From NCBI GenBank assembly GCA_031271295.1, contig JAISVZ010000196.1, forward strand, positions 1-64,000: DNA of 64,000 bases, given 5' to 3'. Under the pieces are notes generated by a model that saw nothing but the letters and a program-made list of their open reading frames with translations, was not told the DNA's origin and made no database searches. The DNA is from Clostridiales bacterium (GTDB lineage Bacteria; Bacillota; Clostridia; Lachnospirales; WQUN01). Shown piece by piece: positions 22,311 through 52,105 of this stretch. The position numbers were made by a program, and so were the translations under genes. Position 1 is the stretch's first letter. Each line of letters begins with the position of its first letter.

Positions 22311-22331
22311 CTAAAAAATGGAGGTAAGAAA

Positions 22332-24008
22332 ATGGCCGAAAATGTAAAATGTAAAACTTGCGGTGCTAATGTTCCTGCGGGAATGAAGTTTTGCGCCTCG
22401 TGCGGGGCAGCGGTTGAACGTACCGAAGTGTCTGCGGCTACTTCGAAGGAAAGTAATTCAGATAATAATGAGGGCGGCAAAAGGCGAGGTTTAAATTTAA
22501 ACAAATTAATTATTCCGGCGGTTATTATAATTGCGGTGTTAGGTATTGCTTTCGTTTCTTTAAGCCTTCTTAAACCTGATAAATATGGAAAAATTGTGGG
22601 GAAAATATCTATTACAAACGACAGGGAGAACAATGTTGTTATTATTTATCCAAATGGCAAGGGTAAAAGCAACATTGATGGTGAATGTGAATTGGGGCAG
22701 TATAATTTTGAAGAAACAAAAGCGGCTTTTTTAATTAGAGAAGAGGAAGGCGATGAAGGTTCGTCACTTTATCTTGTAACCGACGAAGTGAAGCTTATTG
22801 ATGATAATGTTCATAGGTTTTCTTTTTCTGCTTCCGGTAATGCAATAGCATATGTAAAAAATTTTGATTCTGCTGAAAAAACTGGAGAACTATGGCTGTA
22901 TTATAACAATAAGAAAGACTTAATTAACGAAAAAGCAGAAGGAAAACCATTCATTTCTCCAAAAGGAAGCGCAATTGGTTATGTTGCCTATGATGGGGGC
23001 GATAAAGTTGGCTATGTATGGGACGGGAAAGAACACGAGATTGGCGAAGATACTATTCCTATCGCCGTTTCAGACGGAGCGAAATACATATATTATAAAA
23101 AAACCGATACTCTTTACGTACAAAAAGGAACAAAAGGTGATGAAAGAGAAAAACTCAGCGAAATTCCTCTTGCTATATCATTGATGCTAAATAAGGATTT
23201 ATCGCAAGTAATCTATAGTAAATTCGACGAAAATGAAGGTACTAAAAGCTATATAAGCCGGAGTGGGGGAGAAGGGGAGTTTTTGTCTGACCAAATGATA
23301 GGTAGATTAATTATTCCCAGCGGTACAAAAAGGCTAAGTTGCGATTATGATTTATTTACATTCATTGATCTGTATCCTGTTTCAGATTTTTCGGATACGT
23401 TTGGCAGAACCACCGGAACTTCCTGTGAACTTTACCGCATAACACAAAAGTACGATGCAATAAATATTGGTATGGATATTGATACCGTTTATTCCGGAGT
23501 TTTCCTTGCCGATGACGGAAAAACGATGATTTATTCTCGTGATGGTAGTGTTTACAAGATTAATGGCATGGAGGAAAACCCTAATCCTGAGAGGATATTT
23601 ACCGGTGATGTGTTAAGATTTCTTGCTGTTTCTGACGGCAGTGCAGTATTTTATGTAAAAAATAATAACGAGATTTATTATAAAAAAGGAAAAGATGAAC
23701 CGACTCTTGTCTCAGATGACCAAATCGATGAAAACAGCCCAAAGGTGGCGCAGTCAGTTTTACTTAATGGAAAAACACTTTATTATGCAATTGGTAATGA
23801 GTTGTATTTTTCAGAAGGCGCAAAGGGAAAGCTTGTAAACGAATTTGAATTTGATATTTATGGTGTATCAATTGAAGGTGGTGCGGTAATTGTGTCTACA
23901 TACATAGATGAGCGTGGTTATGATCCTAATATTAGGAGTTATGAACAAATTCTGCACCACTACCGCTCTACAGACGGAAAAAATTTCGAGTTAGTGGAAG
24001 CTGATTAA
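22332..24008 (+). CDS. Zinc-ribbon membrane repeat protein, type B, copy 2
   Basis: A 558-residue tandem paralogue of the preceding gene, with the same order of parts: zinc ribbon (CKTCGANVPAGMKFCASCG), membrane segment (IPAVIIIAVLGIAFVSLSL), and beta-rich repeats ending in YRSTDGKNFELVEAD. The two ribbons differ at very few positions, while the outer domains have diverged much more, so the ribbon is under stronger constraint or was exchanged recently. GGAGG precedes ATG. Gap to copy 1 is 21 bases. Confidence 0.8.
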   Translation: MAENVKCKTCGANVPAGMKFCASCGAAVERTEVSAATSKESNSDNNEGGKRRGLNLNKLIIPAVIIIAVLGIAFVSLSLLKPDKYGKIVGKISITNDRENNVVIIYPNGKGKSNIDGECELGQYNFEETKAAFLIREEEGDEGSSLYLVTDEVKLIDDNVHRFSFSASGNAIAYVKNFDSAEKTGELWLYYNNKKDLINEKAEGKPFISPKGSAIGYVAYDGGDKVGYVWDGKEHEIGEDTIPIAVSDGAKYIYYKKTDTLYVQKGTKGDEREKLSEIPLAISLMLNKDLSQVIYSKFDENEGTKSYISRSGGEGEFLSDQMIGRLIIPSGTKRLSCDYDLFTFIDLYPVSDFSDTFGRTTGTSCELYRITQKYDAINIGMDIDTVYSGVFLADDGKTMIYSRDGSVYKINGMEENPNPERIFTGDVLRFLAVSDGSAVFYVKNNNEIYYKKGKDEPTLVSDDQIDENSPKVAQSVLLNGKTLYYAIGNELYFSEGAKGKLVNEFEFDIYGVSIEGGAVIVSTYIDERGYDPNIRSYEQILHHYRSTDGKNFELVEAD

Positions 24009-24030
24009 TAAAAAGCGGAGGATATTTATA

Positions 24031-25803
24031 ATGGCGGAAATTAGAAAATGCAAAACGTGCGGCGCTACAGTTCCGGCGGGTATGAAGTTTTGCGCAACAT
24101 GCGGTACGAAGGTTGAATTTACCGCAAATGAAAATACGGGTGATATACCCGGAAAAAAGACGAATCTCAACTTAAGAAATTTTAATTTAAAAAAATTTGC
24201 AATGCTCGTGGTTATAATTATTGTTGCTTTTACCGCAATAAATTTTGTGTACGCGCAATTAAAACCCAGCAAGTACGGGCAGGTTAAGGGGAGCATATCC
24301 TTTGTACCCGGTGAGGGAGAGGTTACAGTATACACAAACGGAAACGGAAAAGAGAGTATGGAAGGACAGCTTGCAATTGGCAGTACAACGGAACCGCAGT
24401 GGAATCTTGACGGAACAACGGCTGCATTTATGGTAGGAGATGCAGAAGGTAACTGGTCAAGTGAACATGAAACATATACTTTGTACACCGTTACAGATGA
24501 GTTGCAAATGATTGATGAAGAAGTTTTAAATTTTATGCTCTCGGCTACCGGTGATGCTGTAGTTTATGTAAAGGAATTTGATTCGGGTGAAAAAACAGCG
24601 GAATTATGGCTGTATTCGGGCGGCAAAAAAACCATGATAAGCGATGAGTATTACGCGTTATTTGAAGGAATCTTTCAAGGAGTTTATCTCGAATATGTTG
24701 ATACTAACTATGTTGTGTCGCCTAAAGGGGATGCGGTAAGCTATTTGGCTTATAACGATGGCGGCAGTCACACTAATTTTATTTGGGACGGAAAAGCGCA
24801 GGAGCTTGGAGAGGATATTAAACCCTTTGCAATCTCGGACGGTGCGAAATATGTTTACTACAGAAAATGGGATGGTTTTTATGCTCAAAAAGGAACTAAT
24901 AAAGAAACCGCGCAAGAAATTGGAGTGAATGGTGACCATTACCACGCAAACGCTGATTTGTCCCAGATGGTATTTAGTTGCGAAGACGGAACTTATATTG
25001 TGCGAAATGGCGGCGAAAAGGAGTTGTTGTCCAATTCGCGAACGGAGGCGGGTTTTGTAGTGCCGTATGGAACGGCATTGCGAAACGAAGGGCAATTAAC
25101 TATGTATTCAATTTCGAATTTTGAGGATACATTCTATATTTCTACTACATGGTACGGTGGCGCTGATGGTTTTGATGTGTACCATATAAATGGCAAATAC
25201 AAAGCGGATGTAGCGGCGCGTGCTAACGGTCAGATTTACCTTGCAGACGATGAAAAAACTCTGATTTTTGATAATAAAAAGGGTATTTATAAGGTAAACG
25301 GCATGTTAAACAATCCGGAAAAGGAAGAATGTCTTGTTGAAGACGATGTTGCGTATTTTTTTCCAACAGTAAATGGGGAATCCTTTTTTTACGAAAGTGA
25401 TGACGACGAGATTTTATATCAAAAAGGGAAAGGCAAATCTGTATTAGTATCCGACGAAATAGAATCGTACTCCGGTAATTCCAGCCAATTTGACGGATTA
25501 AGCTACAACACTTCGCAGTGGTACAATAGTGCGTACATATCGTCGCGTGGAGATGTAATGAAGAATTATAGGATGTTTCAAGGGGATACGCTGTTTTACA
25601 GTATAGACGAGAAATTGTTTTCTTCAAGCGGGAAGGAAGGAGAGCCGGTAGATATTGACGGTATTGTTGATTCATTTACCGCAGATCCTTTTAATGTCTT
25701 TGTTTATTCCGAATATGATAGGTACGATGAAAGATACTACCATTCGTCAGACGGAAAGGATTTTGATATTGTTGATGTAATATTTAAGGGAGTACAATTT
25801 TAA
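24031..25803 (+). CDS. Zinc-ribbon membrane repeat protein, type A
   Basis: A 590-residue protein: zinc ribbon (CKTCGATVPAGMKFCATCG), membrane segment (FAMLVVIIIVAFTAINFVYA), then type A repeats like those of the lipoprotein at 18947 (KYGQVKGSISFVPGE, YSGGKKTMISDEYY, FHSSDGKDFDI-like end). A 42-base stretch here (from 24328) matches the lipoprotein gene at 41 positions. The four genes therefore stand in A-B-B-A order. GGAGG precedes ATG. Confidence 0.8.
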   Translation: MAEIRKCKTCGATVPAGMKFCATCGTKVEFTANENTGDIPGKKTNLNLRNFNLKKFAMLVVIIIVAFTAINFVYAQLKPSKYGQVKGSISFVPGEGEVTVYTNGNGKESMEGQLAIGSTTEPQWNLDGTTAAFMVGDAEGNWSSEHETYTLYTVTDELQMIDEEVLNFMLSATGDAVVYVKEFDSGEKTAELWLYSGGKKTMISDEYYALFEGIFQGVYLEYVDTNYVVSPKGDAVSYLAYNDGGSHTNFIWDGKAQELGEDIKPFAISDGAKYVYYRKWDGFYAQKGTNKETAQEIGVNGDHYHANADLSQMVFSCEDGTYIVRNGGEKELLSNSRTEAGFVVPYGTALRNEGQLTMYSISNFEDTFYISTTWYGGADGFDVYHINGKYKADVAARANGQIYLADDEKTLIFDNKKGIYKVNGMLNNPEKEECLVEDDVAYFFPTVNGESFFYESDDDEILYQKGKGKSVLVSDEIESYSGNSSQFDGLSYNTSQWYNSAYISSRGDVMKNYRMFQGDTLFYSIDEKLFSSSGKEGEPVDIDGIVDSFTADPFNVFVYSEYDRYDERYYHSSDGKDFDIVDVIFKGVQF

Positions 25804-25820
25804 ATGGGAGGAACCAGAAT

Positions 25821-27797
25821 ATGATTTGCAGTAATTGCGGGGAATACATACAAGATGACTATGCTTTTTGCGGCAACTGCGGGTATAAAGCGGAAATAAA
25901 GCCTGCGCCCGAACCGGTTCCGGCGGTTATTCCTGTACCTGAACCTATACCTGAACCGGAAGTTGTGCCAATAAAGGAGCCGGAGCCGAAATTAAAGCCC
26001 ATAAAGGAGCCGGAGCCGGAATTAAAGCCTATAGAAGAACCTGCGCCGGAAGTTATGCCTGCAAAGGAGACAGTGCGGGAGGTAGCGCCCAAACCTGAAC
26101 CTACGCCGGAAGTTATGCCCGCAAAAGAACCTGTGTGGGAGGAAGCAAAGCCGATTCATCCGAGCTTTACCGAAAAAAAAGAAACTAAGCGCGAAACAAA
26201 GCCGGAATCTGCTTCCGCAGGTTCTGCTGTTGGTTCATTTTTTAAAGCCGTTTTTTCAGTGGTTTTAGGCTTGCTATTATTTGCCGTTACAGCCGCAGTT
26301 ATTGTTATTTCGGCACTTCGTCCCGGAAATATTCCCGGAATTATCGCAAAATCAGATATTGCGGGAATAATTGAATTCGCCGAATTAAGCGAAGAAATTG
26401 TGGAAAGCGCAAATACCTCTTTAATATTAAGCAGAGAAATTGAAGAGGAAGATGTTTACGCGTTTTTCAGCCGTGAAACTGTTGCGGAGGAAATAGGCTT
26501 TGCGGTAGGTTTATATGCCGAGGAGGCCGCCGCCGGTAACTATAGTTATTATCCGGAGCGAAGGGATGTTATCAGCTTTATGAAATCTATTTCTTCCGAT
26601 ATCCGCCGTGAAATAGACTATGAATTATCGGATTATGATTATGAAATGGTAACGAAATTATTGAATGAAACCGACCCTATGCTGGAGTTTAGCATAGAAA
26701 ACATCCTGACCAATAATAATATTGATTATGCTATTCCTTACTTTGTGTTTTCCGGATATTCGTTGATGGTAATTTCTGTTTTGTGTTTTTTGGTAGCGGT
26801 TAATATATTTTTACTGCACAAAAACAAAATCAGGTTGGCTTTTCTGAACATATGTATTCCGCTCGTGATAATCGGAGTAATATTAGTCATTTTTTCTTTG
26901 TTGACCGGATTATTTTCTGATATCGTAAATAACGGCGATCTTGCTGTTATTACATATTTTTTTGACGGCTTGGCTTCTGTTTTGCTTTTACCCGGGTTAA
27001 TATGCGCTATTGTTGGCGTTTTAGCGTTTATAGTATTTTTAATAATTAGCGTTGTACGCAAATCCCGTCCGTTACACAGCGCGAAAAAAAGAACCGCTTT
27101 AAACATAGCGGGTTTAGGCATTAACATAGCGTGCATTATAACGTGCGTAGTTTTAAGCTTTTTGTGTTTGCAAAACGTGCCCGAAGCCTATGCTTCCGAG
27201 CAAAGCGAAACCGAAGACGCAGCACCATTTGACAGCGAAGAGCAGGGAAATACAGAAGGAATAATTGAAGATGAAATTCAAGAACCTGTTGATTCTTTGG
27301 AAAATGCCGAACTGCGAGAACCTGCTGAAAGTCAAGAGGCAGCAGAACGCCCGGAACCTGCTGAGGTTCAAGAACAAGCTGAAGGTCCGGAGCCTGCTGA
27401 AACCCAAGAACAAGCTGAAGTTCAGGAGCCTGTTGAAACCTCAAATGAGGCGTTGCCGCTGGGCTTTAACGGACAAAACGGAGCGGATCCGACAACCGAA
27501 TATTATCTTGACAACCCGCTTAAGTTTAGAGTGGGTGATGTACTGCGAATTGATTTTAGTTTTATAGACATACAAGGTTATGATTATGGGGAAGAGTTCA
27601 CTTTTTTAGATGAAAACGATAACATAATACAATCATTCGTCTCAGTAGATTCACACGGGCCGTATGTGGTGAACACAGCAGGACCTTTTGGGATTTCATC
27701 TTCCGGTGTGGCAGTTAAAGTTCGCATGAATTTTGAATCTTCGCAGGGAGAGGACGTTGTTTACAATGACATTAAGTTTGTTATTTCCACACAATAA
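25821..27797 (+). CDS. Zinc-ribbon multi-pass membrane protein with two repeat linkers
   Basis: A 658-residue protein. It starts with a zinc ribbon (CSNCGEYIQDDYAFCGNCG), then ~95 residues of Pro/Glu/Lys-rich repeats (KEPEPELKPIEEPAPE-like), one membrane segment, a helical extracellular region (~170-290), about four more membrane segments, a second low-complexity linker built of (E/V)-(P/Q)-AE units, and a ~120-residue beta-rich C-terminal domain (PLKFRVGDVLRIDFSF). The last domain is outside if the topology is as read. It follows the A-B-B-A cluster by 18 bases and likely belongs to the same operon. No function can be assigned. Confidence 0.75.
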   Translation: MICSNCGEYIQDDYAFCGNCGYKAEIKPAPEPVPAVIPVPEPIPEPEVVPIKEPEPKLKPIKEPEPELKPIEEPAPEVMPAKETVREVAPKPEPTPEVMPAKEPVWEEAKPIHPSFTEKKETKRETKPESASAGSAVGSFFKAVFSVVLGLLLFAVTAAVIVISALRPGNIPGIIAKSDIAGIIEFAELSEEIVESANTSLILSREIEEEDVYAFFSRETVAEEIGFAVGLYAEEAAAGNYSYYPERRDVISFMKSISSDIRREIDYELSDYDYEMVTKLLNETDPMLEFSIENILTNNNIDYAIPYFVFSGYSLMVISVLCFLVAVNIFLLHKNKIRLAFLNICIPLVIIGVILVIFSLLTGLFSDIVNNGDLAVITYFFDGLASVLLLPGLICAIVGVLAFIVFLIISVVRKSRPLHSAKKRTALNIAGLGINIACIITCVVLSFLCLQNVPEAYASEQSETEDAAPFDSEEQGNTEGIIEDEIQEPVDSLENAELREPAESQEAAERPEPAEVQEQAEGPEPAETQEQAEVQEPVETSNEALPLGFNGQNGADPTTEYYLDNPLKFRVGDVLRIDFSFIDIQGYDYGEEFTFLDENDNIIQSFVSVDSHGPYVVNTAGPFGISSSGVAVKVRMNFESSQGEDVVYNDIKFVISTQ

Positions 27798-33204: not shown

Positions 33205-33405
33205 TTACAAAATAATACCAAAATCCCGCGCAACATCTCGGATTTGCTGAACGGCGGCAGGGTCGTCCGGCGAATTATCGGTATAAGAATCCACATCAAT
33301 GCCTTTTAAAATTAATTTTACGCGAAGGCTGTTTTCAATGAATTTGTCACCCTTGGATTTTTCTAAAATGAATTTTTCAATCATACTTTTTACCTGACCA
33401 ATCAT
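33205..33405 (-). CDS. Small conserved-looking protein, 66 residues
   Basis: The start overlaps the rhaB stop as ATGA, so translation is coupled. The FIST gene starts 31 bases after its end. Predicted helical, no membrane segment: IEKFILEKSKGDKFIENSLR and KLILKGID, ending in SPDDPAAVQQIRDVARDFGI. Family not recognised. The coupling suggests a real gene working with FIST rather than with sugar breakdown. Confidence 0.65.
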   Translation of the reverse strand: MIGQVKSMIEKFILEKSKGDKFIENSLRVKLILKGIDVDSYTDNSPDDPAAVQQIRDVARDFGIIL

Positions 33406-34730
33406 TTTTCCACGCCCTTTTTAATTTTTTTTACTTTAAAACTCTCCGCGATTATACTTCGCCCTTCATTGATGTTTTTAATTTCTCCGAGAGATATCAT
33501 TTGTATAACAAGGTTTCCCGCAGCAGTTGCTTCAACCGGACCGGCAAAGATGTCCGTTTTACATTTTTCGGCTGTTAGGCGGTTTAGCAGCATGTTTTGG
33601 CTGCCGCCTCCTACTATGTAAAGCCCTTTTACATCCGCGAAACTTAAAATTTCACCGTAAGTTTTCTGATAACTTAGGGCTAAACTGTCGAAAATGCAAC
33701 GCGCGATTTCGGCTGTTGTTTCGGGCGGTTTTTGAAAACTTTCCCTGCACGCAAGCCTAATTTCTCCTATCATATCAGAAGGATTCAGAAAACGCAAGTT
33801 ATTAACGTCAACTGTCGAACCGAAGGGGGCCTCCGCCATAGCGGCAAGCTCTTCAAAACTTGGCTTTCCGCCCAAAAGCCTTCTAACCTCCTGCAAAACC
33901 CAAAGCCCCATAATATTTTTAAGCACGCGGTATGTGCCAAACACGCCGCCTTCGTTTGTAAAGCTTGGGTTTTGCATATACGGAGCGTTCATTTGCGCAC
34001 CCATGAGAGACCACGTTCCGGAAGATATGTAGGCAAAATCGCCGGTTGCGGCGGGCACGGAAGCCACGGCGGACGCGGTATCATGCGAGGCGGGCAAAAT
34101 TACCGCCGCTTCGGGGTATTCCTTCATATAACCGATTTTTGTACCAGCCTGAACTATTTCGGGAAAAATACCGCGCTTAAAACCTGTCATTTCAATAAGT
34201 TCGTCGTCCCAATTGCCCGTTGATATGTTTATTAGCTGCGTTGTTGTGGCTATTGTGTATTCGCACGCCATTTTCCCCGAAAGCTTGTAATGCAAATAAT
34301 CCGGTATGGTTAAAAAACGCGCGGCATTTTTGTTCTTGTGCGCTATAAGCTGATAAATGGTGTTGTACTGCGCGGTTTGAATTCCGGTTTTTTTGTACAA
34401 AAAGCTTTGGTCTATTGTTTCCGGCAAGCCGTCCGTCCGATGATCTCTGTAGGAAAAAACATCGGATACAAGCTCGCCTTTTTCGTTTAGCAAGGCGTAG
34501 TCCACGCCCCATGTATCAACTCCGACGGATTTAAACGGAAAATCAGCCTTGGATAAGCCAATCATAATTTCGTTATATATGCGGTTAATATCCCAGTAAA
34601 AATGCCCGTTTTTATATTCCGCGCCGTTAGGGAAACGGTGAATTTCCTTTGTGCGCAAAATATTCCCCTCAAGCCAGCCCGCAATAAGCCGCCCGCTCGA
34701 AGCTCCTATATCTACCGCTATCGACGCCAT
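33402..34730 (-). CDS. rhaB: Rhamnulokinase
   Basis: Phosphorylates L-rhamnulose to rhamnulose-1-phosphate. FGGY-family motifs: VDIGASSGRLIAG at the start, GVDTWGVDYALL, LPASHDTASAVASVPA, YISSGTWSLMG, LYIVGGGSQNMLLN. Length 442 is typical. It is 12 bases downstream of the aldolase gene. No rhamnose isomerase gene occurs in the window, so that step must be encoded elsewhere. Confidence 0.93.
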   Translation of the reverse strand: MASIAVDIGASSGRLIAGWLEGNILRTKEIHRFPNGAEYKNGHFYWDINRIYNEIMIGLSKADFPFKSVGVDTWGVDYALLNEKGELVSDVFSYRDHRTDGLPETIDQSFLYKKTGIQTAQYNTIYQLIAHKNKNAARFLTIPDYLHYKLSGKMACEYTIATTTQLINISTGNWDDELIEMTGFKRGIFPEIVQAGTKIGYMKEYPEAAVILPASHDTASAVASVPAATGDFAYISSGTWSLMGAQMNAPYMQNPSFTNEGGVFGTYRVLKNIMGLWVLQEVRRLLGGKPSFEELAAMAEAPFGSTVDVNNLRFLNPSDMIGEIRLACRESFQKPPETTAEIARCIFDSLALSYQKTYGEILSFADVKGLYIVGGGSQNMLLNRLTAEKCKTDIFAGPVEATAAGNLVIQMISLGEIKNINEGRSIIAESFKVKKIKKGVEK

Positions 34731-34742
34731 TTTATCACCGCC

Positions 34743-35549
34743 TTACAGTTGTAAATTCAAGTTAAACGCATCGGACAAATCTTTTAGGTTTTCCTCCGTA
34801 ATTGTTTGTTTTTTGCCGCCCATCGAAATAACTTTTACCGCTATGGCGGACGCTTTTTCTATTGTATGGGCAATACCGAACGCGCCGCTGAAACTTTCCG
34901 CGCCGGTAACCAGGCCATGATGCGCCCATATGGCGGCGTCGCGCAGGCGAAGTACGCTTGCGGTTTCCTTGGCAAGTTCCGTACTGCCCGGCAAAAGCCA
35001 GTTAATAAAGCCCAAACCCTTTGGAAAAACAACGGCGCATTCCGTAAGGGACTGCCACAACTGTTTGGTAAATGTTTTGCCATCCGGCGGTAAAACATAG
35101 GTAAGCGCCATTAAATTAGGTGTGTGGCAGTGATAAATAACGCGGTTTTTTCCGTCCGTGCTTTGCTTTTTTGCTTCGTGGCTAAGTAAATGAGCGGGCA
35201 GTTCGCTTGTGGGCGCACCGCTTTTTTTTAGCCCCCAACACACGCGGTAGTGTTCGCCGTCCTCGTCAATTTCAATAATTCCGATATTATCTTCGGGGTT
35301 TAGCTCTATATTTCTGAAATGGCTGCCCGTTCCGGTTATCAGAAAATATTCGTCCGCAAGGCTTGGAACGTCCGCGCCAATATCGAACCATTCCCCGTAG
35401 GATAGCAACGTATCCTTTAGCGCTCTTGCCTCCTCGGGTTTTATGCGGTATGAAAGGTTACCTCCGTTGTATTCGTGCCAGCCCATCCTGAACCCGTCGC
35501 CGCACAAACGCAAAAATTCCGCGACAAATTCCGCTTTTAAAATCTCCAT
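34743..35549 (-). CDS. rhaD: Rhamnulose-1-phosphate aldolase
   Basis: Class II zinc aldolase that splits rhamnulose-1-phosphate to dihydroxyacetone phosphate and lactaldehyde. Motifs: EYNGGNLSYRI, FLITGTGSHFRN, YHCHTPNLMALTYV (zinc His pair) and IWAHHGLVTGA (third His). GGAGGAG upstream decides ATG at 35549 (MEILKAEF; 268 residues). It lies between the uronate genes and rhaB. Confidence 0.93.
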   Translation of the reverse strand: MEILKAEFVAEFLRLCGDGFRMGWHEYNGGNLSYRIKPEEARALKDTLLSYGEWFDIGADVPSLADEYFLITGTGSHFRNIELNPEDNIGIIEIDEDGEHYRVCWGLKKSGAPTSELPAHLLSHEAKKQSTDGKNRVIYHCHTPNLMALTYVLPPDGKTFTKQLWQSLTECAVVFPKGLGFINWLLPGSTELAKETASVLRLRDAAIWAHHGLVTGAESFSGAFGIAHTIEKASAIAVKVISMGGKKQTITEENLKDLSDAFNLNLQL

Positions 35550-35576
35550 TTTTAACTCCTCCAAATTTTATAAGTT

Positions 35577-37187
35577 TCACTTCAGATATTTTCTTAGCGT
35601 ATTTCTAACCGCGCCTTCGCCCGATAGCATTTCCGTAAACATTTTTTCAATTGTATCTCCTAAACTCGTTTGCGTAATATCAAGCCCGAAAATTACGCTG
35701 TTACTTAAAATCTCACTTAGCTGACCGGATACGCTCTGCGGGTTATTCCAAACAATATCTTTAAGCTTTGCTTGCAATTCGTCCTTTAAAGGGTCGGTGG
35801 ATACGGCTATTGGTTTTCCGCGGTCGTCCGCTGCCAAAAGGTACCTCAGCCAGCCGGCGACAGAAAGCGGAATTGCAATAAGCTGCGCAAGGTTTTTTCC
35901 TTCTTTTATGTAGCTTTTTATTGTTTCGCCAAACCTTACGGAAACTTTTTGCGAAGTATCCGTTGTTATACGCAGAAGTTCGTCCGGCATAAACGGGTTT
36001 GGCAGGCGTTCGTTAACAACCTCGTCTATGAATGCCTTTGGCGATAAAATTACAGGGTCGGTAACAACACTAAGCCCCTCCGTGTAGCCGAGGCGTTTTA
36101 TTAGTTTTTCTATATCATCGTCCTTCATAACCTCGTGTACATGCTTATACCCGAGCAGACAGCCGAAAACGCTTAACGCGGTATGCAGCGGGTTAAGGCA
36201 TGTTGTTACCTTCATACGCTCAACCTTGTTTACGGTTTCCCTATCGGTAAAATAAACTCCGGCGTTTTCAAGAGGCGGCCTGGAGTTGGGGAAATTGTCC
36301 TCAATAACTAAATACTGCGGTTTTTCGGCGTTGGCGTATAGGGCAATGTGGGTATCTTTTTCGGTAATAAGGGTTTCCATTCCCTCAATTCCGTACTCTT
36401 TAAGTTTATCCGCCACAATTTTCGCCGGGCGCGGAGTTATTTTATCTATCATACTCCAGGGAAAACTAACGCATTTTTCATCCGTAAGCCAGTTAATAAA
36501 ACCGGTATCCGCAAAACCGTTTTCAAGCCATCCGCGGGCAATTTGAACCACGGCATCCGATAATTTCTCTCCGTTATGCGAGCAGTTATCAAGCGATACC
36601 ACGGAAATTGGAAACATACCCGCTTTGTATCTTTTATATAGCAACGCGGCGGTAATACTCATAACATGGCGGGCTTTTTCCGGGCCGTTTTTAATATCAA
36701 GCGAAACTGCCGGCAAAGGTTCACCGGTTGAATTTATTATTGCGTAACCCTTTTCGGTTACGGTGAAAGACATAATTTGAAGCGACGGTGAACACGCAAT
36801 TTCCGTAAGGCGCTTTAGTGAATCCGGAATTGAAAAATCGGCTTTAACAGCTTCGGCTACAGACGCTACGATTTCGCGGCTCATTGTGGAATCGGAATTT
36901 AAAATTACATTTAAAATAAGGTTATCCGAAGGAGCGTAAATTTTATCGATAATTTCGTAGTCGAAAGTTTCCGCCGCTATAATTCCGCGGTCGGTTTCGT
37001 TTCGGTTAAGCAAATTCTGCTGCAAAACCGCCAAAAAAGCGCGGAATATATTACCCGCCCCAAAGTGCAGCCACACCGGGTTTTGCTTCGTTTTTTCAAC
37101 TGTTTCGCGGATGTTGTACCGCGGCAGTAAAACTCCGGCGTTTTCCCAAAAATTTTTGTTTTTAATACCTTCATTATTTAGTTTCAT
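35577..37187 (-). CDS. uxuB: Fructuronate (mannonate) reductase, mannitol dehydrogenase family
   Basis: NAD-dependent long-chain polyol dehydrogenase. Next to uxuA the expected reaction is D-fructuronate to D-mannonate. Motifs: WLHFGAGNIFRAF (NAD loop), VVSLDNCSHNGEKL, the catalytic Lys region MKVTTCLNPLHTALSVFG. Length 536 matches the family. The start at 37187 (MKLNNEG) follows GGGAGG and overlaps the uxuA end by 14 bases. Tagaturonate reductase (UxaB) is the alternative reading, less likely in this setting. Confidence 0.85.
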   Translation of the reverse strand: MKLNNEGIKNKNFWENAGVLLPRYNIRETVEKTKQNPVWLHFGAGNIFRAFLAVLQQNLLNRNETDRGIIAAETFDYEIIDKIYAPSDNLILNVILNSDSTMSREIVASVAEAVKADFSIPDSLKRLTEIACSPSLQIMSFTVTEKGYAIINSTGEPLPAVSLDIKNGPEKARHVMSITAALLYKRYKAGMFPISVVSLDNCSHNGEKLSDAVVQIARGWLENGFADTGFINWLTDEKCVSFPWSMIDKITPRPAKIVADKLKEYGIEGMETLITEKDTHIALYANAEKPQYLVIEDNFPNSRPPLENAGVYFTDRETVNKVERMKVTTCLNPLHTALSVFGCLLGYKHVHEVMKDDDIEKLIKRLGYTEGLSVVTDPVILSPKAFIDEVVNERLPNPFMPDELLRITTDTSQKVSVRFGETIKSYIKEGKNLAQLIAIPLSVAGWLRYLLAADDRGKPIAVSTDPLKDELQAKLKDIVWNNPQSVSGQLSEILSNSVIFGLDITQTSLGDTIEKMFTEMLSGEGAVRNTLRKYLK

Positions 37188-38253
37188 TTTTAACAACAGC
37201 CTCCCATAATCCATTTAAATAAGCTGCGCCAAGCGCCCTGTCGTAAAGCCCGTAACCCGGACGAGCCGCTTCGTTCCAAATCATTCTGCCATGGTCCGGC
37301 CTTACGTAAACGTTTGGGCAAAAGCGAAACATTGCCTTAACAATTTCGTACATGTCCAAATCCCCCTCGGATGAGAGGTGCGCGGATTCCCTAAAGTGCC
37401 TGTAGCCCAAAGTTTTAATATTGCGGATATGCAAACACGCTACGCGATTTAATTCGCCAAACTTGCTGATAATGGACGGAATATCGTTTTCCGGGTTTGA
37501 AGCCAAAGAACCCGTGCACAGGCACAGCGAATGATACGGCGAATTATTTAAGCTGAGTATTTTTTCAAAGCCTTGCTGCGTGTGGGCAACGCGCGGCAAG
37601 TTGAATATTGGCCAAGCCGGGTCGTCCGGGTGGCACGCCATGGTAATGCCAACTTCCTCGCATACGGGAATTATTTTGTTAAGAAAATATTTATAATTCT
37701 CCAAAAGTTTGCTTTCGGAAATATTTTCATATTGCTTCAAAGTTTTTTCAAGTTCCGCCAAACGTTCCGGCTCCCAACCGGGAAGCGAAAAACCTTGAGA
37801 TTTTTCCGCGGTTCTTTTAACAATATCCAAAGGCCCCATTTCGCCAAGGTCCTTTTCGTTAAAATAAAGCGAACTGGAACCATCCTGCGGTATAAGGCGC
37901 GCCAAATCCGTCCGAAGCCAGTCAAAGACGGGCATAAAATTGTAAACTATAACCTTAACGCCGTATTTCGCTAAATTCCGGATTGTTATTTTGTAGTTTT
38001 CTATGTACTTATCGCGGTTGCCCGTTCCGGTTTTTATATCCTCGTGAACGTTAACGCTTTCTATTACCTCGCACTCAAGACCGGCCGAGTTTACCTCACT
38101 TACATACTTTTCAATTTCATCCGTAAGCCAAACTTCCCCTGCCGCCTTATAGTCCAAAAAACCCATAACACCTGTCATACCGGGTATTTGCTTTATGTTT
38201 TCAAGGGTAACGGTATCGCTGTTTGCGCCAAACCAACGAAATGTCATTTTCAT
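37174..38253 (-). CDS. uxuA: Mannonate dehydratase
   Basis: Dehydrates D-mannonate to 2-keto-3-deoxygluconate in glucuronate breakdown. Motifs: FRWFGANSDTV at the start, VYNFMPVFDWLRTD, MACHPDDPAWP, HIRNIK, RPDHGR, GYGLYDRALG. Length 359 is standard. AAGGAGAG precedes ATG. First gene of the minus-strand string. No uronate isomerase or KDG kinase/aldolase is nearby. Confidence 0.95.
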   Translation of the reverse strand: MKMTFRWFGANSDTVTLENIKQIPGMTGVMGFLDYKAAGEVWLTDEIEKYVSEVNSAGLECEVIESVNVHEDIKTGTGNRDKYIENYKITIRNLAKYGVKVIVYNFMPVFDWLRTDLARLIPQDGSSSLYFNEKDLGEMGPLDIVKRTAEKSQGFSLPGWEPERLAELEKTLKQYENISESKLLENYKYFLNKIIPVCEEVGITMACHPDDPAWPIFNLPRVAHTQQGFEKILSLNNSPYHSLCLCTGSLASNPENDIPSIISKFGELNRVACLHIRNIKTLGYRHFRESAHLSSEGDLDMYEIVKAMFRFCPNVYVRPDHGRMIWNEAARPGYGLYDRALGAAYLNGLWEAVVKNETK

Positions 38254-45595: not shown

Positions 45596-45637
45596 ATAAC
45601 AATGCTCCTAAGCAACAATATAGAGGGGAACTTGTAC

Positions 45638-45919
45638 ATGATTTTTGAATGGGATGAAAACAAAAACGAAGCGAATAAAATAAAACACGGTGTTTCATTT
45701 GAAGAAGCAGAAACAGTTTTTGATGATAAAAAGGCTAAGTTCATTTTCGATGTTTTACATTCGGTTGATGAAGAACGTTTTATAATTATTGGATTGGATT
45801 CGATTTTTCGGGAGCTTACCGTATGTCATTGTTATCTCGGAGAAAACGATGAGATAGTAAGAATTATTTCTGCAAGAAAGGCAACAAAAAACGAAAAAAG
45901 TATATATTATGGAAGGTGA
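45638..45919 (+). CDS. brnT: BrnT-family (DUF497) toxin
   Basis: A 93-residue RelE-fold ribonuclease toxin of a type II pair. It shows the family marks FEWDENKNEANKIKHGVSFE, ETVFDD, RFIIIG, and RIISARKATKNEKSIYYG (conserved C-terminal RxxSAR-x-A). The start at 45638 follows GAGGGG; the longer frame is unsupported. Antitoxin gene follows after 5 bases. Confidence 0.9.
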   Translation: MIFEWDENKNEANKIKHGVSFEEAETVFDDKKAKFIFDVLHSVDEERFIIIGLDSIFRELTVCHCYLGENDEIVRIISARKATKNEKSIYYGR

Positions 45920-46245: not shown

Positions 46246-47391
46246 TTATCTATTTTGCGCGGAGCGCATTCTTATGTCGAACCAAACGGCCAAAATAAGA
46301 ATTAAACCCTTTATTATAAACTGGAAGTTATCGTCAATATTCAGTATGCTCATTCCGTTTGTGAAGCTTACCAACACGAAAGCGCCAATCATAGCGTTGG
46401 CAACGTTTCCGCGCCCTCCGGCCAAACTTACTCCGCCTACAATACTTGAAGCAAGCGCGTCAAGTTCTCTGCTGATAGTTAAACGGGGAGTTGCCTGCGC
46501 AAACTGGGCTGTTGATAAAATTCCCGCCGCTCCAGCAAGTAAACCCATTATGGCAAAAGCAACAAGCGTAACGCTTGCGTTATTTATGCCGGATAGTTCC
46601 GCCGCGTAAGGGTTACCGCCAACCGCGTACAGTTTCCGGGCAAACCTTGTTTTTAACAGTACAAAGGAAGATATCGCCGCAAGGCTTAGCAGTAAAAAAA
46701 CCGGCGTTGGAATTCCCTTGTATAGATTCATAATAAAACAGAATAACCCAAGCGAAAAGGCAATTACCGCGTAACGTACAAGTTGCTTAAAAAACGGAAT
46801 TGTGCGTTCGGGAAATATTTTGCGGTATGCCGCCTTACTTTTTGCGTCCAAAATAATATATAACCCAAGCAGAGCCGCGCAGAACATAACACCCGCGTAA
46901 GAAGGCAGGTAAGACTGCCCAAGCATTGTAAAAAACGAATCGTTAACCGGGATTGCAACGCCCTGCGTTACAATGGCAAGCGCGCTCATAAATATTAAAC
47001 CGCTTCCCAGAGAAACAATAAACGCGGGAACCTTTGCGTACGCTATAAGCAACCCGTTCCAGGTACCTATAAGCGCTCCTGCAAGCAGTGTAATTCCAAT
47101 TGCGGCAACGCTGTTTAAACCGGTATTTGTAACCAAATACGCCGCAAGCGCTCCCAAGAAGGCTGTTACCGCTCCAACAGATAAATCAAACTTTTTGGCA
47201 ATAAGGCAAAATGTCATTCCAATTGATAATATGCCCACAACGGAGGCTTGCCTAAACAGATTGGACAAACCGCTTACACTCATTAGCCTGCCTTCGGAGG
47301 CAAATTGAAACACTAAACTTATAATTATAAGCGAAGCAATCATAGCATAACTTTTAAAATACTTAATTGCATTTCGCTTAAATGAACTCAA
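46246..47391 (-). CDS. Orphan sugar-type ABC permease (RbsC-like)
   Basis: A 381-residue BPD_transp_2 permease with eight to ten membrane segments. Family marks: VGILSIGMTFCLIAKKFDLSVGA (in two parts), GTWNGLLIAYAKVPAFIVSLG, YAVGGNPYAAELSGIN, ALASSIVGGVSLAGGRGNV. AAAGGAG stands 9 bases before TTG at 47391, which is preferred over the longer frame. Unlike most RbsC genes it has no ATPase or binding-protein gene in its own transcript. The divergent operon encodes a two-component system and an ATPase-like protein without ATPase motifs, which may be its partner. Confidence 0.88.
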   Translation of the reverse strand: MSSFKRNAIKYFKSYAMIASLIIISLVFQFASEGRLMSVSGLSNLFRQASVVGILSIGMTFCLIAKKFDLSVGAVTAFLGALAAYLVTNTGLNSVAAIGITLLAGALIGTWNGLLIAYAKVPAFIVSLGSGLIFMSALAIVTQGVAIPVNDSFFTMLGQSYLPSYAGVMFCAALLGLYIILDAKSKAAYRKIFPERTIPFFKQLVRYAVIAFSLGLFCFIMNLYKGIPTPVFLLLSLAAISSFVLLKTRFARKLYAVGGNPYAAELSGINNASVTLVAFAIMGLLAGAAGILSTAQFAQATPRLTISRELDALASSIVGGVSLAGGRGNVANAMIGAFVLVSFTNGMSILNIDDNFQFIIKGLILILAVWFDIRMRSAQNR

Positions 47392-47464
47392 TTTTGTTAA
47401 CTCCTTTAAGGTACCTTGGCTTATCATTATATAGCGCGCATACACAGAAGAATTTATTAAAATT

Positions 47465-47724
47465 GGGCTGCCGCAAAAAAGGGGGAGGCAAATTACGACA
47501 GCCCGTATAAGGGGGTAAGCTAATTAAGTTGTTCTTTATACGAGAAGCCTGACTTAGCGCTTTGCCTCGCTTCGCCAGGCACTCTTCTCATACATGAAGT
47601 TGCATTGCTTTGCTTTTAATTAATAGCAACAGTGCCGCCTTCGAAAGGGGATGTTCCTTACCCTCACCGGAACCTTCCGCTTCGAACGCGCCGTAGGCTG
47701 CCCGGGCGGCACCATTGCTATTAA
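47465..47724. ncRNA. Highly structured non-coding region, possible RNA or leader
   Basis: Four successive stems: 47465-47473 with 47496-47504; CGTATAAGG 47504-47512 with 47534-47542; GAGAAG/CTTCTC (47542-47547, 47584-47589) with inner CCTG/CAGG and AGCG/CGCT; and a 20-base inverted repeat 47620-47639 with 47705-47724 (18 matches) enclosing about 65 bases. No known RNA family was recognised. On the minus strand it would be the permease leader, the last stem lying about 75 bases before the TTG start. A mobile-element remnant is the alternative. Confidence 0.45.
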
Positions 47725-47730
47725 CCGGCT

Positions 47731-47906
47731 TTAGTTTTGGCCACTCTTTTGTTGTTCAAATTTCGCTTTAGTTGTTTTTTGTTTCGCTTTTGTAGTTTTT
47801 AATTTCGCTTTTGTTGTTTTTAATTTCACTTTAGTAATTTTTAATTTCGCTTTTGTGTTTTTAGGTTCTCTTTTGCTTGGTGTATGTCTTTCGTGTGTCT
47901 TGCAAA
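47731..47906 (-). pseudogene. Gene fragment with 7-residue Lys-rich repeats
   Basis: An open minus-strand frame of ~58 codons without a usual start codon ends at TAA (47731-47733). It encodes units like KLKTTKA five times. The DNA repeat is exactly 21 bases with units at 47759, 47780, 47801, 47822 and 47843. In-frame spacing suggests a former coding region, perhaps the tail of a lost gene. The remaining gap 47907-48014 shows nothing else. Confidence 0.4.
47759..47863. repeat. Five 21-base tandem repeats
   Basis: Five contiguous 21-base units of the form AATTTCGCTTTTGT(T/A)GTTTTT with few substitutions and no indels. Confidence 0.85.
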
Positions 47907-48014
47907 CTCATAATAGCGGTAAAAAAAAACGAGTGCAATACCTTGGCTTAAATGTCATAGAATTCCCACCTTAAAAAATAGAATTTCCCTCCTTTTACCT
48001 TTCAACACATAGCT

Positions 48015-48042
48015 TGATAATGTTTTTAAAAATGATAAAATA
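48015..48042 (+). promoter_or_regulatory. Promoter of the YesN/YesM/pseudo-ABC operon
   Basis: TTGATA (48015-48020), 16 bases, TAAAAT (48037-48042), 64 bases before the start. Confidence 0.5.
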
Positions 48043-48106
48043 GTATCAGGCAAAACATAAATGCAATTGTTTTGTAAAGGGGATAACAGCAAAAGGGGTT
48101 GTTTTG

Positions 48107-49699
48107 ATGAAGGTTTTAATAGCGGACGATGAAATAAATATCTGTAAACTTATCAAAAACAGTTTGGATTGGGAAGGTTTAGGGTTAGAGCTTTGCGCAA
48201 TGGAAACAAACGGGCCGGCGGTTTTGGAAAGCATTAAAAAGTATTCGCCTGAAATTGTTATTACCGATATTCAAATGCCGGGTATGAGCGGAATTGATAT
48301 AATTGCCGAGGTTTCAAGCTGGAATACCGTTACGCGCTTTATTATAATAAGCGGCTATTCTTATTTCGAGTACGCGCAAAAAGCTGTGCAGTACGGTGTG
48401 GAAAATTTTCTGTTAAAGCCGATTCGCAAATGCGAACTTAACGATACCGTTGCCCGCTTGGCGGAAAAAATTGAAAAGGGCAGGCAGCTTCGCACTAAAA
48501 TAAGTAAGCAAACAAGCGAACTTAAGCAAAGCAAAAGCAAGGTTCGCCGTTCGTTTCTTTTAAGCAACTTAGACGCGGAGCGTGTATTTAAAAACGCGCA
48601 AGAGCTGAATAATGAGTTTTATTTTAATTTCAGCTACGAATATTTTACGGTTGGCATTGTACATATAGCTCACACGGCGGACGATGCCAATACGGATATT
48701 GTGCTTAACAATTTTCGTTCATCGCTGAAAAACAATCTGTCGCAGATAGGCGCGGAATGCGAAATAGAAGCCGAAACCGCCGGAAAATTATGTTTTATTT
48801 TAAATCATGATTCAACGGACGCGGTTGTGGAACGCACACTTTCCTATTGCGTAGACGATTTGCTGGCAAGCAGGTCCCTAATTAAGCCTAACTTTATAAC
48901 CGTAGGTATAAGCGACGCGTTCACCTTGCCCTCGAGCTTTAAGCAGGCGTACCAAAACGCGAATAACGCTGTTGCGTGCCGTTTTTTCCCCGGTAAAAGC
49001 CGCGTTTTGCGCTATGCTCCAAAGGAAAGCGCGCCTTCGGAAAAAACATGGCAGTTTTATTTGGACGAACTTCAGGAAAAGCTTACCGCCGTTACGGACA
49101 AAATGCAGTTTGACGCAATTCCGCAGCTTGTGGCGCAGGCGATGGGAAAAATGTGTCCCGCGCTTTCGCGCACGCCGGTTGATACATTGCGTGCTTTTGA
49201 AAGCCTTACCGCAATTTTAACGCGTTTTTCGGATAACCATGAGGATGAGGAAAAATACAACCTGCTTGCCTCGCGGGCGAACAATTACGCGGAACTTACC
49301 GCCATAGCGGAGGTTTTGGCGTCTTCCGCGCAGTCAAAATTAAACAGCCGCGTTTTAGGCAGAAACGCCGCAATTGTTGAAAAGGTGAAAAAATATTTAA
49401 AGGAAAACTTATGTAACGCGGTGGATTTATCAAGCGCGGCAAGAGAGGTTAACTTTGCTCCGTCGTATTTGGGCGTTATTTTTAAAGCCGAAACGGGAAT
49501 AGGTTTTTCCGATTACCTTATGAGGCTTCGCATGGATACCGCCAAGGAACTGCTTTCCGGGCTTAGGGACAACGTTTCGCAAGTGGCTAATAAAGTGGGT
49601 TACCGCGACGTTAAGCATTTCAGCGGTATGTTTCGCAGAATTGTGGGCATTACGCCGGCCGAATACAGAAAAATACACCATCTCAAGGAGGCGGATTGA
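48107..49699 (+). CDS. YesN-type response regulator with AraC domain
   Basis: A 530-residue regulator: receiver domain (LIADDE, phospho-Asp in IVITDIQMPGMSG, Lys in LLKPIRK), a ~270-residue middle part, and a C-terminal AraC DNA-binding domain with two helix-turn-helix motifs (VDLSSAAREVNFAPSYLGVI, VSQVANKVGYRDVKHFSGMF). ATG at 48107 follows AAGGGG. It overlaps the kinase gene by one base. In this family the regulator usually controls carbohydrate uptake genes; the divergent permease is an obvious target. Confidence 0.92.
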   Translation: MKVLIADDEINICKLIKNSLDWEGLGLELCAMETNGPAVLESIKKYSPEIVITDIQMPGMSGIDIIAEVSSWNTVTRFIIISGYSYFEYAQKAVQYGVENFLLKPIRKCELNDTVARLAEKIEKGRQLRTKISKQTSELKQSKSKVRRSFLLSNLDAERVFKNAQELNNEFYFNFSYEYFTVGIVHIAHTADDANTDIVLNNFRSSLKNNLSQIGAECEIEAETAGKLCFILNHDSTDAVVERTLSYCVDDLLASRSLIKPNFITVGISDAFTLPSSFKQAYQNANNAVACRFFPGKSRVLRYAPKESAPSEKTWQFYLDELQEKLTAVTDKMQFDAIPQLVAQAMGKMCPALSRTPVDTLRAFESLTAILTRFSDNHEDEEKYNLLASRANNYAELTAIAEVLASSAQSKLNSRVLGRNAAIVEKVKKYLKENLCNAVDLSSAAREVNFAPSYLGVIFKAETGIGFSDYLMRLRMDTAKELLSGLRDNVSQVANKVGYRDVKHFSGMFRRIVGITPAEYRKIHHLKEAD

Positions 49700-50730
49700 T
49701 GAGCGGATTTAAATCGTTTTTAGATGATGTTTTTACTTTTGCGTTTAAGCGCCGTTATTACCCTGTTATAGCATTGCGGCTTGTTGTGCTTGCGGGGTTT
49801 ATATTTATGGCGGTTTACGCGGCGTATTCCTACCGGCCTTTTATTGTTTTTGCAATAATTTTGAGTGTTGGCGGGCTTTACGGCCTGTTTGAAACCCTTC
49901 ACATCTTTTACGACGATTTGCAAAACCCGATAAATTACATAAAGCAAATGAACATACCCATGCCGGAAGCAAGCAATTATTCTTCCTACAGCGAATATTT
50001 GCTCGCCTGTTTGGCGCACGCGGAAGAGGTTGCGGCAAGGGAGTACAATTTGGAGCTTATGCAGAGGCAGGCTGTTTTAACCGCTATGCAAAACCAAATT
50101 AATCCTCATTTTTTGTATAATACCTTGGATTCTATCCGGGGGCAGCTTTTAGAGGAGGGAAGTATTGAAAGCGCGGAAATGCTGGAAACACTTTCTTCCT
50201 TTTTTCGTTACACAATTACGCAAAAAAGCTCTGTAGTGCCGTTTGAGCGGGAACTGTTTCATGTGCTTAACTATATAAAAATACAAAAGTACCGCTTTAA
50301 GGACAGGTTTGAAATAATAACCGAGGGCAAATGTGAGGATACGCAAATAGTTACATACCCAATACCTAAGCTTACGCTCCAGCCGCTTGTTGAAAACGCG
50401 ATTGCGCACGGGCTTAAAGATACCATAACGGGCGGAGTAATAAAAATTACCGTTGAAAAAGCCGAAGGATATTTTATTATTTCGGTTTCGGATAACGGCT
50501 GCGGGATAGACGAGGAAAAGCTTCTTAAAATTAAAGCGGAACTTGCCGGCGATTTTTTCGCGGAAGGGCGCGATATTTCGAACAAAGGCATTGCGCTGAG
50601 CAATGTAAACATACGTATACAAAATATGTACGGCAACGAATACGGGCTTGATATAACAAGTACGCGCGGTATAGGAACCACGGTATCTATCAGGCTTCCG
50701 CTAAACAGAGAGGAAGAATCACATGAGTGA
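49699..50730 (+). CDS. YesM-type histidine kinase without extracellular sensor domain
   Basis: A 343-residue kinase with His_kinase motif QINPHFLYNTLDSIRG (phospho-His), N-box LVENAIAHG, DNGCGI and a late GIALSNVNIR. Only two adjacent membrane segments (~23-65) with a very short outside turn precede a ~60-residue linker. Common YesM kinases carry a large extracellular Cache domain, which is missing. It must therefore receive its signal through the membrane or from partners. It lies between the regulator and the pseudo-ABC gene, overlapping both. Confidence 0.9.
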   Translation: MSGFKSFLDDVFTFAFKRRYYPVIALRLVVLAGFIFMAVYAAYSYRPFIVFAIILSVGGLYGLFETLHIFYDDLQNPINYIKQMNIPMPEASNYSSYSEYLLACLAHAEEVAAREYNLELMQRQAVLTAMQNQINPHFLYNTLDSIRGQLLEEGSIESAEMLETLSSFFRYTITQKSSVVPFERELFHVLNYIKIQKYRFKDRFEIITEGKCEDTQIVTYPIPKLTLQPLVENAIAHGLKDTITGGVIKITVEKAEGYFIISVSDNGCGIDEEKLLKIKAELAGDFFAEGRDISNKGIALSNVNIRIQNMYGNEYGLDITSTRGIGTTVSIRLPLNREEESHE

Positions 50731-52105
50731 TTTGATACGTTTTAACAATATAGCGGCATCGCAAGAGGGTCGCTCGGTTTTAAATTACCTGAGTTTCGAC
50801 ATTAAAAAGAACCTTGTAAGCGTTTTGTTTTCGAAGGATTACCGCGAACGCAAATTAATTGCCGACATTTTGTGCGGCTTTGGCGAGCCGGATTTTGGCA
50901 GGGTTTCTTTATTCGGCAGCGGCGCAAAAAAGGGAAATACGGCTGAAAGGTTAAAACGCGCGGTTCATTATGTTAGAGCGCACAGCACTATGGTGGAGAG
51001 TTTAACCGTAATGGAAAATATTTTGCTTGCGGATAAAAGCATATACAAATACGGAATACTCCGGGAAAAAATTTTGTTTGAAAAAATGAAATATTTGCTG
51101 GACAAAACAGGGCTTGACGAAGAATTGTTTTTTAAAATGGGCAAAGACGCAACCAGGGTTGAAACGCACATTGCGCTTGCCTGCATAGCTTTGGTGCGAA
51201 AAAGTGAACTTATAGTATTTGAAAACGGTATGGATTCCTACAGCGAGCAGGATTGGCAATTGTTCGAAGGTTTTGTAAAAAAACTTACGGATTTAGGGTT
51301 TTCAATGCTTTTTATTACCCATAAGTACAGCCGACTGTTCGAATTATCGCAGAAAATAATTTTAGTGCGCGGGGGAATTAACGTTACCGCGTGCGGAACC
51401 GCGCCTCTTTCGAAGGATAATGTTTTAAAAATTATGACGGGAGCGGACTGCGGAATTTCGCAGCCAAACGAAACTCAGCCAAACGAGAGCAACTCTCCGC
51501 ACTTTCGCGGCAATTCCGGCGGGTATGATTTTAGCTTGAAAAAAGGTTCGGCACTGGGAATTTTAGACCGAAACTGGGACGCCGCGCCGAATTTGCTTTT
51601 AAGCCTGAAAGGAAGCGGGCGCAATAAAACAAACGTAACCGTGGACGGCAAGCAAATTAAAGTAAATGAAAAAGGCATAAACACAGATGTGGCGGTAATA
51701 GACGCGCAAAATATTACGCAGCGCGTTTTCCCAAACATGAACCTGTACGAAAATATAACCTGTATTGTTAACGCGGATATGGATTATCCGCTGGGCATAC
51801 TTAACGAGCGCAGCCGCTTTTATCTTTTCAGGCATATCCTTACGGTTTTGCGCATGGATGCCCACGCGGATTTAAATAAATTTTGCTTTAAGGAGAGCTT
51901 CAGTGTGCAAACCGCAAAATGGGCTTGCACATTGCCAAAATGCATGTTTTTCTTTAATCCCCAGCAGTATTACGACGATTTTACAATTAAGGAGTTTTAT
52001 TCTTTGGCAAATTGCCTTTTAAACGAAGGAATAGCTGTGGTTGTTGTTTCGCAAAGCAGCCAGGTTTTGGGGGAGATATGCAAAACTGTTTGCGTTTTTG
52101 AGTGA
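50723..52105 (+). CDS. RbsA-like double ABC protein without ATPase motifs
   Basis: A 460-residue protein aligned end to end with the two-domain sugar ATPases RbsA/MglA/XylG. In half 1 the Walker A position reads FSKDYRERK instead of G-GxGKST, the Q-loop Gln is lost (YVRAHSTMVESLTVMENI), the signature is missing (KDATRVETHIALA), and Walker B ends LIVFENGMDS instead of MDEPT; only the H-loop His (FITHK) remains. Half 2 also lacks Walker A (GILDRNWDAAP) and Walker B (MFFFNPQQYYDD). The reading frame is intact with normal codon use, so it is a maintained non-catalytic protein, not decay. It overlaps the kinase gene by 8 bases. A signalling link between permease and kinase is inferred. Confidence 0.82.
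   Translation: MSDLIRFNNIAASQEGRSVLNYLSFDIKKNLVSVLFSKDYRERKLIADILCGFGEPDFGRVSLFGSGAKKGNTAERLKRAVHYVRAHSTMVESLTVMENILLADKSIYKYGILREKILFEKMKYLLDKTGLDEELFFKMGKDATRVETHIALACIALVRKSELIVFENGMDSYSEQDWQLFEGFVKKLTDLGFSMLFITHKYSRLFELSQKIILVRGGINVTACGTAPLSKDNVLKIMTGADCGISQPNETQPNESNSPHFRGNSGGYDFSLKKGSALGILDRNWDAAPNLLLSLKGSGRNKTNVTVDGKQIKVNEKGINTDVAVIDAQNITQRVFPNMNLYENITCIVNADMDYPLGILNERSRFYLFRHILTVLRMDAHADLNKFCFKESFSVQTAKWACTLPKCMFFFNPQQYYDDFTIKEFYSLANCLLNEGIAVVVVSQSSQVLGEICKTVCVFE

Follow-up and report, generated by a model that had tools for sequence, protein, structure and literature searches.

A degenerate RbsA-like protein encoded with a short YesM-type kinase: a candidate signalling subunit between sugar importers and gene regulation in Clostridia

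The window considered here is a 64,000-nucleotide stretch of a Clostridiales bacterium genome (contig JAISVZ010000196.1, assembly GCA_031271295.1). Between positions 46246 and 52105 it carries a permease gene that is divergent from an operon encoding a YesN-type regulator, a YesM-type kinase and an RbsA-like protein with two ATP-binding cassette (ABC) domains, which has lost its ATPase motifs and is called pseudo-RbsA below. An earlier note on this DNA placed all four genes, and their divergent arrangement, correctly. We find that the pseudo-RbsA belongs to a conserved operon and is under purifying selection, and that it may serve, without catalysis of its own, as a signalling subunit that connects a CUT2 sugar importer with the kinase. 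The features are listed here.

46246..47445, minus strand: orphan CUT2 permease of the GguB/XylH type, 399 amino acids from a GTG start or 393 from the ATG at 47427
47446..48103, no strand: non-coding gap between the divergent genes, with an inverted repeat, a tandem repeat and a promoter-like site
48104..49699, plus strand: YesN-type response regulator with a receiver and an AraC-type helix-turn-helix (domain matches)
49696..50730, plus strand: short YesM-type histidine kinase with intact H-box and ATPase domain (domain matches, tree, hydropathy)
50723..52105, plus strand: pseudo-RbsA, a catalytically dead RbsA-like tandem ABC protein of 460 amino acids as judged from domain matches, alignment and a structural model

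All four genes are intact open frames. By their coordinates the three plus-strand genes overlap tightly, with the YesM ATG at 49699 sharing one base with the YesN stop and the pseudo-RbsA ATG lying 8 nucleotides within YesM. The kinase has the His_kinase and HATPase_c domains (Pfam/NCBIfam) and keeps its catalytic boxes. At 344 amino acids it is short compared with the open frames of about 490-640 amino acids of most other YesM-type kinases. A large extracellular sensing domain is typical, though not universal, in the YesM type (His_kinase, PF06580). Hydropathy predicts two membrane segments in the window kinase, at about residues 20-44 and 45-67, with hardly any outside loop and no extracellular domain. 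In other words, on hydropathy it has the marks of an intramembrane-sensing histidine kinase: two helices, a very short outside loop and no sensing domain.

The pseudo-RbsA matches models of the RbsA/XylG/AraG type over its full length, with a best score of 90.5 bits against a cut-off of 699. It falls below the ABC_tran cut-off (16.0 versus 25 bits). With curated families of RbsA-type CUT2 ATPases, whose cut-offs are 586-850 bits, scores reach at most 132 bits. Alignment with intact RbsAs shows what has happened to the catalytic motifs. In the first half, Walker A1 has changed from GENGAGKST to SKDYRERKL and Walker B1 from IMDEPTS to VFENGMD. In the second half, LSGGN of signature 2 reads FCFKE, Walker A2 has gone from GLMGAGRTE to DRNWDAAPN and Walker B2 from MFDEP to FFNPQ. 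The first signature is altered further from the state in true RbsAs. The alignment thus bears out the claim that neither half retains a usable Walker A, Walker B or signature, with the caveat that two of the six losses begin from a degenerate state, because even in intact RbsAs the first signature departs from consensus and the second Walker A is of the Arg type. The complete ATP site, formed by Walker A and B of the first half and the signature of the second, is missing in the window protein and in every aligned family member. Given this loss of motifs, the pseudo-RbsA is probably unable to hydrolyse ATP.

Is this a damaged gene or a family? A direct search with the window pseudo-RbsA returned only intact RbsAs as best matches. 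A search with the window kinase returned kinases that are 43-46% identical and have equally short open frames (about 350 amino acids). Those examined in context are followed by an RbsA-like protein of their own without Walker A or LSGG. A profile search across the order then identified clear pseudo-RbsAs in 7 of 295 genomes, all scoring 363 bits or more; the matches that follow do not exceed 197 bits and are of intact-RbsA length. A scan of named bacterial genomes with four query sequences gave 34 loci, including Tepidanaerobacter, Caloramator, Anaerocolumna, Caproiciproducens, Caproicibacter, Geosporobacter, Blautia, Paenibacillus dakarensis and many uncultured Clostridia. Together with three from the genome searches, and with the window excluded, 37 loci from Clostridia and one Paenibacillus have the order YesN, short YesM, dead RbsA; a few of these assemblies have frameshifts or end at the contig edge. 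The neighbourhood is therefore conserved. The motifs are lost in every locus examined, and the close homologue with intact motifs that would have pointed to a sequence error was not found among them. A divergent further member (L228, genome G400) has the same six-gene order.

The sequence itself is constrained. The ratio of nonsynonymous to synonymous substitution rates (dN/dS) is about 0.06-0.15 for the pseudo-RbsA and about 0.015-0.06 for intact RbsA, in pairs with measurable dS. The pseudo-RbsA is under purifying selection, yet it evolves faster than intact RbsA. With dN/dS far under 1 and 37 loci that include cultured isolates, a sequencing error or a pseudogene is ruled out. The pattern of conservation has also shifted. 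Intact RbsA is most strongly conserved at its ATP motifs, whereas Walker A1 and A2 of the pseudo-RbsA are at or below the average of the protein. In the aligned members the ATPase motifs have given way to residues conserved within the family, for example VFCxQPFxxAD and SLYNLVYYR, and the former Walker B2 and H-loop segments hold new, strongly conserved residues (VFCxQPFxxAD and NHHEE). The fold is retained. A model of one family member (predicted local distance difference test, pLDDT, 88) matches the tandem ATPase subunits of the peptide importers OppABCD and DppABCD over its length, with template modelling (TM) scores of 0.72-0.76. The model of the window protein (pLDDT 74) also finds tandem ABC ATPases as its fold matches, the tandem arrangement being uncertain at a predicted TM score of 0.52. 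By these matches the pseudo-RbsA keeps the two-domain architecture that sits beneath an importer. Two other candidates were discarded. A Walker A pattern in L107 (GEEVFGKS) is at residue 384, which is not a Walker position, and an apparent YesM-pseudo-RbsA fusion in L130 and L135 (open frames of 922-923 amino acids) owes its extra 420 amino acids to another reading frame over a separate YesM.

The earlier note had expected the conserved companion of the module to be an orphan RbsC-like gene. This did not hold. At 31 of the 37 loci the module has an intact RbsA next to it, with 70-82% identity to the reference copy, and in nearly all of the 31 this RbsA is accompanied by a permease and an RbsB-like binding protein. 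The conserved partner is thus a working transporter. Three of the other six loci stop at a contig edge; the last three are considered below. In several loci the partner's binding protein is tandem-duplicated in one chain of about 610-650 amino acids (L073:10959-12857, L107:13643-15502, L131:4300-6150, L132, L134, L136 and L137), each half being about 55-68% identical to the single-copy form. Four loci (L119, L122, L128 and L228) have a D-lyxose isomerase gene (PF07385) nearby, and genes for a ROK kinase and a SIS isomerase recur near others. None of these hints to a substrate is directly applicable to the window.

The position of the pseudo-RbsA gene in most loci, between the regulator and the intact RbsA-permease-binding-protein genes, would also suit a different role. 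The protein might be a brake that occupies the permease in place of RbsA, with YesM and YesN as a separate, ordinary regulator of the operon. We consider this very doubtful. The pseudo-RbsA is tied to a single kinase clade and persists even at loci with no transporter next to them, and a kinase with no sensor of its own requires an input. The tie is close: among 391 genomes of the class, 13 have a pseudo-RbsA (at least 389 bits, next match 273) and 14 have the kinase clade (at least 395 bits, next 309), with 13 common to both. In the fourteenth, the 3.2-kb contig breaks off within the pseudo-RbsA gene.

Further examples come from three weaker kinase matches, which lead to YesN-short YesM modules with different dead RbsAs (L246, L247 and L248). 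These RbsAs are about 14-25% identical to everything else, and each module lies near an intact CUT2 transporter or parts of one. L248 has a counterpart, 38% identical, in a second genome (L250/L269), where the kinase is again present and a divergent operon of binding protein, RbsA and permease lies alongside. This relative (L269:7709-9181) has a good Walker A1, GLNGSGKS, and has lost most else; its sequence suggests a possible intermediate or a nucleotide-binding variant. From the separate lineages and this Walker A1, motif loss is graded and seemingly happened more than once. L268, where a near-intact second RbsA stands beside YesN and a longer protein, was rejected as not of the same kind.

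The best explanation of these observations, to which we give an even chance, is that the pseudo-RbsA is a non-catalytic signalling subunit between a CUT2 permease and the intramembrane kinase YesM. The three plus-strand genes would then form a three-component sensing module. YesM, with two membrane helices and no sensing domain, would get its input from the pseudo-RbsA, which would dock on the inner face of the CUT2 permease dimer in the manner of RbsA and on YesM as well. It would report to YesM the state of the permease (a docked binding protein, the passage of sugar), and YesM would phosphorylate YesN and so turn sugar genes on. In most relatives the permease would be that of the complete transporter encoded alongside, and the pseudo-RbsA would share it with the working RbsA or compete for it. 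In the window the orphan GguB/XylH-type permease is the likeliest partner, the transporter being absent; this is the weakest step. As for the earlier proposal that permease and pseudo-ATPase sense a sugar and signal to the kinase, the dead RbsA is indeed conserved, selected, tied to CUT2 systems and paired with a sensor-less kinase, and what has to be revised is the partner, which in the family is an intact operon.

Several observations weigh against this explanation. At three loci (L075/L127, L130 and L135) the sequence covered shows the module but neither a transporter nor an orphan permease. In genome G619 the operon (L244:6334-12806) is otherwise intact and lacks the pseudo-RbsA, a copy of which is on another contig (L243:8115-9566). 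It is 55% identical to the reference and lies between ileS-like and peptidase-like genes; its retention there suggests that the pseudo-RbsA is needed even when unlinked. The Q-loop region is the docking place of the permease in ABC importers, and the Q-loop blocks of the pseudo-RbsA, its supposed permease contacts, are conserved above average by a modest, non-significant amount. Finally, the window permease belongs to a different subfamily from the family permeases (24-32% identical), and its tie to the module therefore rests on adjacency in one assembly. Perhaps the pseudo-RbsA never touches a permease. It could be a cytoplasmic sensor or adaptor on YesM that reads a metabolite or nucleotide, with the transporter merely a member of the regulon. 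The loci without a transporter and the unlinked copy in G619 are in keeping with this, and the apparently usable Walker A1 of L250/L269 makes ligand binding without hydrolysis conceivable. However, a single ABC domain would be enough for such a role and the full RbsA-type tandem length is retained, and several very distant lineages of the module all lie beside CUT2 systems or parts of them. On balance such a sensor seems unlikely.

The window has its own place in this family. With a family profile built without it, the window pseudo-RbsA scores 99 bits, versus 64 with an intact-RbsA profile; the two true RbsAs of the same genome score 174 and 153 bits with the former and 484 and 479 with the latter. 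No other member is as diverged (its identity to the rest is 14-20%), and in the tree all other family kinases together form the sister group of the window kinase, with support 1.0. The kinase position and the profile scores together mark the window as a deep, fast-evolving branch. The adjacent intact RbsA-permease-binding-protein operon of the family is missing here, where there is only a permease of another subfamily, and the partner transporter was not found in the window's assembly, which is 94% complete. The window is thus a divergent copy, a deep side branch that lost its partner transporter.

The permease that stands there matches BPD_transp_2 (PF02653) with 103.8 bits (cut-off 26.8), and its best NCBIfam model is GguB at 292 bits, under the cut-off of 450. 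It retains the loop GGNPYAAELSGIN, presumably the ATPase-contact loop, where the family permeases have GSNxxAxxLSGVN. As the earlier note had said, it is an orphan, with no adjoining ATPase or binding-protein gene. The assembly has only two RbsA-type ATPases, both on contig C47, and the only CUT2 permeases found in it are the orphan and those of the two C47 transporters. One intact RbsA on C47 is accompanied by a permease 32% identical to that of the window. A complete transporter elsewhere that uses the orphan was to count against the original idea, and use of the orphan by this ATPase is possible. Is the window then a relic? On that view the partner transporter has disappeared, the pseudo-RbsA is adrift, and the permease has no relation to the module, being left over from a GguB/XylH-type operon and perhaps served by the C47 RbsA. 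The divergence of the pseudo-RbsA and the missing partner transporter speak for it, as do the 19 closest relatives of the permease, each of which is directly behind an intact RbsA. Nevertheless, the four open frames are intact, the three operon genes overlap tightly, and the catalytic boxes of the kinase and the conserved loop of the permease are retained, which makes decay distinctly unlikely.

A bolder form of the signalling-subunit proposal is that dead RbsA paralogues arose several times, replacing or sharing the ATPase on a CUT2 permease and so making receptors for intramembrane YesM kinases, with the window as a dedicated, non-transporting ABC receptor without adjoining ATPase or binding protein. 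We offer this tentatively, as the less probable outcome. The transport-incompetent complex of the earlier note survives in this restricted form: it does not describe the family, with its intact operon beside the module, and may apply to the window variant.

The gap upstream of YesN contains a 20-nucleotide inverted repeat (arms 47620-47639 and 47705-47724, 65 nucleotides apart), an array of AATTTCGCTTTTGTTGTTTTT-like 21-nucleotide tandem repeats (47759-47884) and a promoter-like site on the plus strand (48014-48041). A consensus scan of the gap gave no clear excess over shuffles, a search of the window's genome found no second match to the array, and an Rfam search of the window gave no matches. 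A motif resembling the 21-nucleotide repeat is seemingly read through in an open frame elsewhere (L040:2569-2904). Outside the locus, a small BrnT-like toxin gene (45602-45919) was noticed by eye at the 3' side of the permease, as was a cluster at 33402-38253 with rhamnulokinase-, rhamnulose-phosphate aldolase-, fructuronate reductase- and mannonate dehydratase-like genes. At 20631-27797 lie genes for four proteins in tandem that look related and carry a zinc-ribbon-like motif (CxxCGA...CxxCG) at the N-terminus.

No sensor is visible in short YesM kinases. For them, and for the way in which sugar importers signal to gene regulation in clostridia, a conserved dead ATPase between kinase and importer offers a concrete, testable idea, namely that the receptor is the transporter, read by the pseudo-ATPase. 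If so, pseudoenzyme signalling would extend to ABC importers, and genes otherwise taken for ordinary sugar ABC transporter ATPases would gain a role. The open-licence literature yielded no description of a YesM/YesN system paired with an ABC ATPase that is inactive or degenerate, and the module is apparently undescribed so far.

How does it compare with known systems? The pseudo-RbsA resembles the RbsA, XylG, AraG and MglA tandem ATPases of CUT2 importers in full-length homology and tandem ABC fold, and differs in lacking Walker A, Walker B and signature in both halves and in its operon place with YesM and YesN. To our knowledge, neither Bce modules nor the clostridial three-component sugar sensors use a dead ATPase. 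In Bce-type modules (BceAB with BceRS) a sensor-less kinase reads an ABC transporter, its membrane helices contacting the permease (PMC10314905). Bce modules use an active transporter, directed against peptide antibiotics, whose conformational cycling the kinase is proposed to sense. The pseudo-RbsA module instead combines a YesM-type kinase with a CUT2 sugar importer, and its extra subunit is a paralogue of the ATPase that is catalytically dead. No BceAB-like transporter is in the module operon of the window or the family loci, and the neighbours are CUT2 importers. In the clostridial sugar sensors XylFII-LytS and CuaD-CuaS-CuaR, an accessory protein derived from a transporter shares an operon with a kinase and regulator that respond to sugar (PMC10384115). 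That accessory, an extracellular binding protein, acts on an extracellular kinase domain. The window has neither; its accessory is a cytoplasmic ATPase relic and its kinase has no extracellular domain. The pseudo-RbsA/short-YesM module is best placed as a variant of the transporter-coupled two-component systems.

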